The notes under the pieces: generated by a model
What the model was told of the DNA's origin: nothing
The model's database searches: none
The model's input: the letters and a program-made list of their open reading frames with translations, nothing else
Origin: Deltaproteobacteria bacterium
GTDB taxonomy: Bacteria > JAUYMQ01
Direction of reading: 5' to 3'
NCBI GenBank assembly: GCA_030698575.1
Contig: JAUYMQ010000571.1
Location: forward strand, 1-25,383
Length of the DNA: 25,383 nt
Made by a program: the position numbers and the translations under genes
In this document: piece by piece, positions 11,738 to 13,741 of the stretch
Numbering within the stretch: position 1 is the stretch's first letter
How the letters are laid out: each line of letters begins with the position of its first letter

Positions 11738-11784
11738 AAAAAGGGGACACACCCCTGTTTTTAGTGGGGTGCGTCCCCTTTTTT
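11738..11784 (+). terminator. Strong intrinsic terminator after the GST gene
   Basis: GGGGACACACCCC (11743-11755) pairs with GGGGTGCGTCCCC (11766-11778) with a single internal mismatch. It is flanked by five A on the left and six T on the right, with a 10-nt loop. The A and T tracts allow it to work on both strands. The GGGGACACACCCC core also looks like short palindromes scattered in many high-GC genomes. Confidence 0.85.
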
Positions 11785-11792
11785 CGGTTTGG

Positions 11793-11820
11793 TTGACAGG
11801 GGGACAACTTGGGATACACT
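11793..11820 (+). promoter_or_regulatory. Sigma-70-type promoter upstream of nuoB
   Basis: A perfect -35 hexamer TTGACA (11793-11798) is separated by 16 nt from TACACT (11815-11820), four of six matches to TATAAT. It lies 9 nt after the preceding terminator, as expected for a fresh transcription unit. The transcript would start near 11827, giving a leader of about 86 nt that can fold through CCTCGC (11854-11859) and GCGAGG (11885-11890). Confidence 0.65.
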
Positions 11821-11912: not shown

Positions 11913-12446
11913 ATGGTAGAGTTTGGCGCCGGCCAAGATGCCCCGTTTGTCACCTCCCGGCTCGACAACCTCGTGAGCTGGGGGCGCAAGTACTCGTTTT
12001 TTCTCTATCCTTTCATCACCGCATGTTGCGGCATGGAGTTCATGTCCGTGGCGGGCCCCCGCTACGACATTGACCGTTTTGGTGCGGCGCTCCCACGGTT
12101 TTCCCCCCGCCAGGCCGATCTCCTCATGGTCGTCGGGACGATCAGCCACAAGCAGGCGCCGATTTTGAAGAAAGTCTACGACCAGATGTGTGAGCCCAAA
12201 TGGGTGGTGGCATTCGGTGGTTGCACCTGCTCCGGGGGGCCCTACGACAACTACGCCACGGTGCAGGGAATCGACACGATCATCCCTGTCGACTCCTATA
12301 TCATCGGTTGCCCTCCCAGGCCCGAGGCCGTTCTGGACGGCCTCATCAAGCTCCAGGAGCGCGTCACGCGCGAGAAGGTCCCGGCCGACGGAAGGCATGT
12401 GGAGCTGGAGAATCTCCCTATCCTGAATGTGAAGCAGGCAAGGTGA
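11913..12446 (+). CDS. nuoB: NADH-quinone oxidoreductase subunit B
   Basis: NuoB (PSST homologue) holds cluster N2, the last iron-sulfur centre before quinone in respiratory complex I. The 177-residue protein has all four N2 cysteines: the tandem pair Cys38/Cys39 in TACCGMEF, Cys104 in GGCTCSGGPYDNY, and Cys133 in GCPPRPEA. The intervals (65 and 29 residues after Cys39) equal those of E. coli NuoB. The ATG at 11913 is chosen because AAAAAGGA lies 4 nt upstream and it follows the promoter; the open frame extends further upstream through the GST gene but that part has no NuoB character. The stop overlaps the next gene's GTG start. nuoA, nuoC and nuoD, the usual neighbours, are absent, so the complex I genes are split. 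Subunits of related [NiFe] hydrogenases share the fold but the spacing and ends favour NuoB. Confidence 0.94.
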   Translation: MVEFGAGQDAPFVTSRLDNLVSWGRKYSFFLYPFITACCGMEFMSVAGPRYDIDRFGAALPRFSPRQADLLMVVGTISHKQAPILKKVYDQMCEPKWVVAFGGCTCSGGPYDNYATVQGIDTIIPVDSYIIGCPPRPEAVLDGLIKLQERVTREKVPADGRHVELENLPILNVKQAR

Positions 12447-13045
12447 AGAAGGCGAGCGCGACCAAGCGAGGACAGCGAGCCCGGCCCGCCGGGGCCGCCA
12501 AGAGCGGTAGCCGGGGGGCCAAGCGTGTGGCCAAGCGTCCGGCCAAGCCGGCAGGGAAGAGTTCCGGGCGGACGGCGAAGCGCCCCGCGGCTGGGAAGGC
12601 CCGCGTGGCGGCCAAGCCCAAGAGCAAGAAGGCCGCGAAGCCGCGCAAGCCCGTCGCGCAGGCTCGCCCGCAGCCCCCCGAGCAGGTCAGGCCTCCCCTC
12701 ATCCGCAAGGGGCTCCCCGTCACCAAGGCGGGACTGCGGCGGCTCGGGAAGATGCAGCAGGGGGAACGGCCGGAGATCAAGTCGATTATCGTCTACACCA
12801 CCGAGCAGAAGCCCAAGAATCTCTATCCACGCAAGATTATCTCGCCTCCCTTCCCGTCGAAATGTTGCACCGACGTGAACCGTCTCCGTGTCGGAAAGAT
12901 CTACGAGGAACTGGGGAGAAGCTATTACTACAAGGTCTGCAAGGTGTGCGGGCACGGGGTGAAGTACTATTTCAACCGCGAGACGGAATTCGAAATGCCC
13001 AAGCTCCGGAAGTACTACGAGTGGAAGAAATCTGTCTTCCACTAA
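12443..13045 (+). CDS. Unrecognised protein: Lys/Ala/Pro-rich N-terminal tail plus four-cysteine domain
   Basis: A 200-residue protein I do not recognise. Residues 1-85 are low-complexity and strongly basic, rich in Lys, Arg, Ala and Pro, with AKRPA/AAKPK-type motifs like histone H1 tails. Residues 86-200 look like a compact folded domain. It starts LIRKGLPVTKAGLRRLGKM, continues with a strand-rich IKSIIVYTT, then Cys141-Cys142 (SKCCTDVNRLRVG) and Cys166-x2-Cys169-Gly-His (YYYKVCKVCGHGVKYYF), and ends in an aromatic and basic KYYEWKKSVFH. The four cysteines suggest a zinc or iron-sulfur site. The GTG start overlaps the nuoB stop (GTGA), so translation is coupled, and nuoI follows after 54 nt. 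No signal peptide or membrane segment is visible. A complex I assembly or iron-sulfur role is suggested only by position. Confidence 0.75.
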   Translation: MKKASATKRGQRARPAGAAKSGSRGAKRVAKRPAKPAGKSSGRTAKRPAAGKARVAAKPKSKKAAKPRKPVAQARPQPPEQVRPPLIRKGLPVTKAGLRRLGKMQQGERPEIKSIIVYTTEQKPKNLYPRKIISPPFPSKCCTDVNRLRVGKIYEELGRSYYYKVCKVCGHGVKYYFNRETEFEMPKLRKYYEWKKSVFH

Positions 13046-13099: not shown

Positions 13100-13741
13100 A
13101 TGGCTGCGCGCGTCGTCAAGGTCAAACGAGGACCCGAACTCACGCTCTGGGAGCGCCTGTACATCCCGGAGATAATCCGCGGCCTGGCCGTAACGTCCCG
13201 CCACTTCTTCTCGAATCTCTGGGGCTTCATCATCGGCAAGCCTCGCGTCGCCACCGTTCAGTATCCGGAGCAGCGCCTGGAACACCCGGCGGCCTTCCGC
13301 GGCATGCCGGTTCTGGTCGCACGCGAAGACGGCAGCGAGCGATGCGTGGCCTGCGGCATGTGCGAGGTCGCCTGCCCGCCGCGTTGCATTACGATCGTTC
13401 CCGAAGAGACCGAGGGCACGATCGAGAGGCGACCGAAGATCTTCGATATCGATCTGTCACGATGCATGTTCTGCGGCCTCTGCGAGGAGGCTTGCCCGGA
13501 AGAAGCGATCGTCATGTCGGCCGACTTCGAGATCGCCTGCGAGACGCGCGAGGGGCTCATCTGGGGCAAGGAGCAGCTGCTGAAGCCGCCGGAGCAGTTG
13601 CGGCGCCGGATCAATTACATCCGGGATGAGTTCAACAAGTACGACTCGGCCAAGGATGCGCCGACGAACGTGATCGGCGCGACCAACGCCCGGCTGGCGA
13701 AGCCGGCGGGAGAAGACCAGCGGCGGGCGGGGAGCCACTGA
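13100..13741 (+). CDS. nuoI: NADH-quinone oxidoreductase subunit I
   Basis: NuoI (TYKY homologue) carries clusters N6a and N6b, which pass electrons to N2 in NuoB. The 213-residue protein has two classical 4Fe-4S motifs: CVACGMCEVACPP with Cys82, 85, 88 and 92, and CMFCGLCEEACPE with Cys122, 125, 128 and 132. The N-terminal helical segment (LWERLYIPEIIRGLAVTSRHFFSNLWG) is the typical membrane-surface anchor, and YPEQRLEHPAAFRGMPVL and RCMFCGLC fit NuoI over generic ferredoxins. The C-terminus has about 30 additional, poorly ordered residues. GAAGG sits close upstream of the ATG. It is co-directional with nuoB and the unknown Cys-rich gene, forming a minimal cluster of N2-side subunits without nuoH. 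Confidence 0.93.
   Translation: MAARVVKVKRGPELTLWERLYIPEIIRGLAVTSRHFFSNLWGFIIGKPRVATVQYPEQRLEHPAAFRGMPVLVAREDGSERCVACGMCEVACPPRCITIVPEETEGTIERRPKIFDIDLSRCMFCGLCEEACPEEAIVMSADFEIACETREGLIWGKEQLLKPPEQLRRRINYIRDEFNKYDSAKDAPTNVIGATNARLAKPAGEDQRRAGSH

Follow-up and report, generated by a model that had tools for sequence, protein, structure and literature searches.

A four-cysteine protein encoded between nuoB and nuoI belongs to an unnamed family of very probable zinc ribbons

How the Q-module subunits of complex I acquire their iron-sulfur (Fe-S) clusters in bacteria is, to our knowledge, little understood. NUBPL/Ind1, a relative of Mrp, is a complex I assembly factor that has been proposed to insert Fe-S clusters (PMC6196649). 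NDUFS6, a Zn-binding subunit of mitochondrial and alpha-proteobacterial complex I, contacts NDUFS8, the homologue of NuoI, and has been suggested to originate as an Fe-S assembly factor (PMC8762328). Here we analyse a gene, called X below, that lies between nuoB and nuoI in a contig of a Deltaproteobacteria bacterium. This whole stretch of DNA (25,383 nucleotides) is referred to as the window, and its relevant features are the following.

11738..11783, + strand: hairpin (arms of 18 nt, complementarity 94%) and then T's; probable end of the upstream transcript (repeat search)
11793..11820, + strand: sigma-70-like promoter TTGACA-16-TACACT upstream of nuoB (10/12 matches, consensus match only)
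11913..12446, + strand: nuoB, NADH-quinone oxidoreductase subunit B, cluster N2 (profile match)
12443..13045, + strand: X, protein of 200 aa with four cysteines; its start overlaps the stop of nuoB (ORF)
12443..12697, + strand: X residues 1-85, tail rich in K, R, A, and P and resembling histone H1, presumably disordered (net charge +27)
12698..12775, + strand: X residues 86-111, segment G[LV]P..xG..LRR.G, common to the Glo_12 orthologue only (alignment)
12776..12991, + strand: X residues 112-183, ribbon domain, I..Y...N.YP..IISPP.PS.CC-x23-CxxCGH.V (conservation)
12863..12868, + strand: first knuckle, adjacent C141 and C142 (conservation)
12938..12949, + strand: second knuckle, C166-x-x-C169, then GH (conservation)
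13100..13741, + strand: nuoI, NADH-quinone oxidoreductase subunit I, clusters N6a/N6b (profile match)

The reading frame of X is open from the GTG at 12443 to the TAA at 13043-13045 (200 aa, + strand). The first-pass annotation, made from the sequence alone, had described a GTG start overlapping the nuoB stop, an 85-residue basic tail resembling histone H1, and CC and CxxCGH pairs in a C-terminal domain, between nuoB and nuoI. All of these were confirmed. The TGA of nuoB (12444-12446) shares a 4-nt GTGA with the start of X, which implies translational coupling, and nuoI starts with an ATG at 13100, after a 54-nt gap. Profile searches identified the neighbours as NuoB (Oxidored_q6; nuoB_fam, 9e-59) and NuoI (TIGR01971, 2e-35). 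The promoter-like site (1 found in a motif scan, 0.3 expected) and the hairpin both lie upstream of nuoB, and nuoB-X-nuoI is therefore probably a single transcript. The strong, GC-rich hairpin (AAAAAGGGGACACACCCC...GGGGTGCGTCCCCTTTTT), situated between a glutathione-transferase-like gene and nuoB, is terminator-like and possibly a repeat element.

The tail of X (20 Ala, 16 Lys, 12 Arg, and 12 Pro) had no second copy when its own genome was searched. Its third-codon G+C (0.87) fits that of the neighbouring genes (0.79-0.85), as for a coding region. Because an in-frame ATG is also present at residue 104, we consider translation of the tail, on these sequence features, to be likely only. The protein ends about 24 residues past the ribbon. 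Sequence comparison indicates that the four-cysteine domain is more than a chance occurrence, since homologues with the same four cysteines are found in the same genome, in the metagenome-assembled genome (MAG) Glo_12, as well as in 34 genomes from a different phylum.

The C-terminal ~70 residues of X represent a small-protein family to which none of Pfam, NCBIfam, and PHROGs gives a name, as neither X nor its relatives had a match above cut-off in these collections; the initial description of the protein as "unrecognised" was thus borne out. Searches of the PDB sequences with the single X sequence and with the family profile gave nothing significant, and no relative was found in the plasmids searched or the viral contigs scanned. 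We found no experimental work on any member of the family in the literature. A second copy (90 aa) is present in the same genome, on contig C154 (L041:3737-4006), 2 nt upstream of a gene for a DegP-type protease. One orthologue was found in the GTDB genome contigs searched; it lies upstream of folC in the unrelated MAG Glo_12 (L005). A profile built from these three sequences detected the family in 34 of the 95 genomes of a Methylomirabilota-like phylum (the G225 phylum), with 1-6 copies in each, and not in f85, a large family of that phylum. The first-pass proposal that X is lineage-specific does not agree with this distribution. When the profile of the family alignment (A2) was run on ~386 diverse genomes (two samples, largely overlapping), only the window genome and the G225 phylum were retained; matches elsewhere at E 0.004-0.007 were partial or stop-containing and were left out of the count.

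All four cysteines are invariant in the 27 non-redundant members of alignment A2, as expected of the metal site that had been suggested for X, and the invariant residues overall are Y, SP, CC, G, Y, C, and CG. X and the Glo_12 orthologue are sisters in the tree (support 95/87), with the own-genome paralogue adjoining them (86/86); the deep forks are poorly resolved because the tree is based on 72 columns only. Most members are ~90-110 aa long and devoid of a basic tail, with a core charge of -3 to +11. Basic tails, mutually unrelated and placed at either end, occur in at least four subfamilies: N-terminal in the window (+27), C-terminal in G475 (+16), N-terminal in f263 (about +16 to +18), and C-terminal in the DegP group of f261 (mostly +9 to +12). 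The pairing of the paralogue with DegP is also seen in f261, a family of another phylum, in reversed order. Three loci (L061, L075, and L083) each contain a tandem pair of X copies, with a TetR gene alongside in L061 and L075.

The fold of the X domain is very probably a zinc ribbon, as judged from a predicted structure, and its four cysteines would hold a zinc ion. The AF2 model (two sequences) contains a three-stranded sheet (strands 36-45, 48-55, and 61-66) with the CC at 30-31 and the CxxC at 55-58, so that the knuckles precede strand 1 and separate strands 2 and 3, which is the layout of a zinc ribbon. The core (31-66) had a pLDDT of ~72-81 (block means), for a mean of 65 and a pTM of 0.51, and a longer fragment gave a pLDDT of 50. 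Structure prediction, which had been proposed in the first-pass annotation, thus yielded a ribbon-like sheet and no significant Foldseek match (best E 0.74). Because Foldseek found no match at E below 0.7, we do not assign X to a structural family. In the VIA structure comparison, the best Z was 3.5, and the rows for the zinc ribbon of NrdR covered the same core (Z ~3.0, rmsd 2.5-2.8, 39-40 residues), a weak likeness that is within noise.

We also looked for the other complex I genes in the window's genome (G000; 653 contigs, 91.6% complete). The main nuo operon is on contig C287 (L114:9633-19000 and L115) and comprises nuoA, C, D, (E), F, G, H, J, (K), L, and M, of which A, C, D, F, G, H, J, and L are confirmed by NCBIfam, and E, K, and M are assigned by position and sequence only. 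Neither nuoB between A and C nor nuoI between H and J was found by tblastn of this contig, and the nuoA/C and nuoH/J gaps are only a few dozen bases long. The sole other NuoB-like gene of the genome is on contig C72 (L116), in a group-4-hydrogenase-like set, and its product is only 40% identical. From the lack of both genes on C287 and the character of the C72 copy, the complex I of this organism apparently obtains its NuoB and NuoI from the window cluster. The pairing of X with nuoB and nuoI is therefore tighter than the first-pass annotation had stated, both genes being absent from the main operon. Tetranucleotide use in contigs C373 and C287 is near-identical (r 0.98), indicating that they very probably belong together. 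NuoI-like and NuoH-like genes are also present on C72, which probably encodes a group-4 hydrogenase or a related membrane oxidoreductase.

The idea that X is linked to the N2-side module of complex I was upheld as far as the operon pairing with NuoB and NuoI is concerned and found no counterpart in the rest of the family. The arrangement nuoB-X-nuoI was seen in none of ~60 other loci, the window being the only case among 61, with some stretches ending at contig ends; the orthologue precedes folC and the paralogue precedes the DegP gene. A lack of conserved nuoB linkage, which the first-pass annotation had named as speaking against its idea, is thus what the genomes covered here show. The survey covers one genome of the window's own phylum, so that the absence of nuoB-X-nuoI elsewhere is not final. 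The conserved nuo linkage expected of a complex I subunit or of a dedicated assembly factor was accordingly not observed in the 61 loci. Four loci were considered as candidates for the same arrangement and rejected: L089 encodes instead a small subunit of the hydrogenase type that has ferredoxin repeats; in L078, more than 2 kb separate X from the nuoI-like ferredoxin, and the nuoB-like piece lies at the contig end; in L054 and L059, the matches to the nuoB and nuoI queries are ~3 kb from X.

In three families of the G225 phylum, X is located in or at the head of SUF/Mrp operons for Fe-S assembly (loci L042, L046, L053, L058, L064, L072; L049, L054, L059; L062). The gene order is receiver domain-X-Mrp-SufB...SufS in f191, sulfite reductase-X-ferredoxin-Mrp-Suf genes in f262, and X-Mrp in f264. 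Pfam identified the partners as the NUBPL iron-transfer NTPase, FeS_assembly_P, SUFBD_core, Fer4, NIR_SIR, and NadA. A nadA-nadC-nadB set lies downstream of X in f191. No SUF/Mrp linkage of X was found in the window's own genome. Other neighbours were a TetR_C_13-type regulator upstream of X in f191, f261, and f262, DegP on either side of X in f261, f263, and the own genome, and CcdA, MscL, and folC; the paralogues are spread over different operons, next to genes for TetR and response regulators. After collapsing of the loci, ~20 independent contexts remained, three or four of them with Fe-S genes. By a rough estimate this share is not clearly above chance; the theme is real for SUF and not yet statistically secure.

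X is thus best regarded as belonging to a so far undescribed family of small proteins, very probably zinc ribbons (a Cys pair, then CxxC), and is extended by an unrelated polycationic tail. The reading that we tentatively favour, with a probability of about 0.38, is that it acts as an accessory zinc ribbon in the maturation of Fe-S or redox proteins. This would fit the gene neighbourhoods of X: Mrp and SUF genes in one phylum, nuoB and nuoI in the window. We infer each step of the mechanism as follows. The conserved ribbon surfaces YP..I[IV]SPP and Y[KR].C would bind a partner protein, and X would help to make, load, or protect Fe-S and redox proteins. Translated together with NuoB and NuoI, as would be the case in this lineage, it may help both Fe-S subunits to mature, after which these would join those complex I subunits that the main nuo operon encodes. 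The basic tail might tether X to nucleic acid, to the ribosome, or to an acidic surface of its client. In favour of a role in Fe-S maturation are the four cysteines kept by 27 members, the ribbon-like AF2 core, the placement in SUF/Mrp operons, the Fe-S neighbours (nadA, the hydrogenase-type small subunit of L089, and nuoB and nuoI here), and a possible analogy with NUBPL/Ind1 and NDUFS6. Against it stand the many non-Fe-S contexts (TetR in three families, DegP in two families and the own genome, CcdA, MscL, and folC), the sole orthologue, which has no nuo linkage, and the histone-like tail, which is unexpected in an Fe-S accessory factor. A bolder version appears quite unlikely to us, namely that X is the first bacterial zinc-ribbon factor to partner carriers of the Mrp/SUF type in loading or guarding the Fe-S subunits that are its clients, one paralogue of which is now dedicated in this phylum to NuoB and NuoI, having left the main nuo operon with them.

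A close second to the Fe-S/redox accessory reading, though doubtful in itself, is that X is a nucleic-acid-binding regulator, its ribbon and basic tail binding RNA or DNA and each paralogue acting locally, perhaps by controlling its own operon in response to redox state or metals; binding to nucleic acid had also been raised as an alternative in the first-pass annotation. The strongly basic tails, unrelated to one another and found at one end or the other in four subfamilies or more, fit nucleic-acid binding about as well as the Fe-S role, and the scattering of paralogues over operons beside TetR and response-regulator genes, as well as the presence of the repressor NrdR among the VIA rows, point in the same direction. 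However, the tail is missing from most members, the best-conserved surface is proline- and aromatic-rich, and a Z of 3 for NrdR does not stand out from noise. It is less probable still that X is a general stress or redox zinc ribbon, devoid of complex I function, that became inserted between nuoB and nuoI as the two parted from the main operon. The uniqueness of the arrangement among ~61 loci, the folC and DegP neighbours of the orthologue and the paralogue, and the reshuffled nuo order in this genome are consistent with such an origin, whereas the 4-nt overlap with nuoB and the fact that both flanking genes encode Fe-S subunits argue against it. Finally, X could be a stable accessory zinc subunit of this lineage's complex I, situated near NuoI and analogous to NDUFS6, which touches NDUFS8/NuoI (PMC8762328). 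We hold this to be very improbable: the operon position, the four-Cys site, and the finding that a profile search of the window's genome revealed no zf-CHCC protein speak for it, but the relatives are not linked to nuo, show no similarity to zf-CHCC, and exist as several paralogues per genome in varied contexts.

Under the Fe-S/redox accessory reading, an unnamed zinc-ribbon family that recurs in SUF operons, and whose member here is presumably translated together with NuoB and NuoI, offers a concrete test protein for cluster delivery. Should this idea fail, what is left is a clean family that lacks a name in Pfam, NCBIfam, and PHROGs and occurs in Methylomirabilis-type bacteria, and whose recurrent basic tails suggest nucleic-acid binding.

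Compared with known domains, the nearest sequence relative of X appears to be, below threshold, the C-terminal half of RNHCP (Pfam PF12647, function unknown; nothing was found on it, or on the nuoB-X-nuoI arrangement, in the literature), which contains C...M ... hRCxxCG and resembles the second half of the X domain. An HMM-HMM comparison, of the kind proposed in the first-pass annotation, gave an hhalign probability of 67% for this half-domain (E 5e-5, one comparison). The half-domain was matched in 10/27 members (best E 7.6e-4), those shown being below the curated cut-off; the best single-member score was 19.7 bits, as compared with a cut-off of 24 bits. X carries the CC pair and the N-terminal YP..IISPP segment, while the N-terminal CxxC and the RNHCP motif are absent from every A2 member. 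Whole-domain membership of RNHCP is not supported on these grounds, the curated cut-off having been missed. NrdR shares with X the CxxC of the second knuckle and a sheet on which the predicted one superposes weakly, but X has no ATP cone (no Pfam match), its first knuckle is CC, and no nrd linkage was seen. The likeness to histone H1-like or AlgP-like K-A-P-rich tails concerns the composition of residues 1-85 only; X is without a globular H1 domain, and no matching repeat was found elsewhere in the genome.

As to complex I, NDUFS6/zf-CHCC (PF10276) and X have in common a small zinc-binding domain, predicted in X, on the NuoI side, where the tie of X is its operon position only. The zf-CHCC profile matched none of the 27 family members at E up to 10, the site of NDUFS6 consists of three Cys and one His and that of X of four Cys (CC and CxxC), and the relatives of X are not linked to nuo. 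X belongs to neither the NUBPL/Ind1 nor the NDUFS6 family; it is a novelty at the level of the family rather than a dedicated part of complex I.
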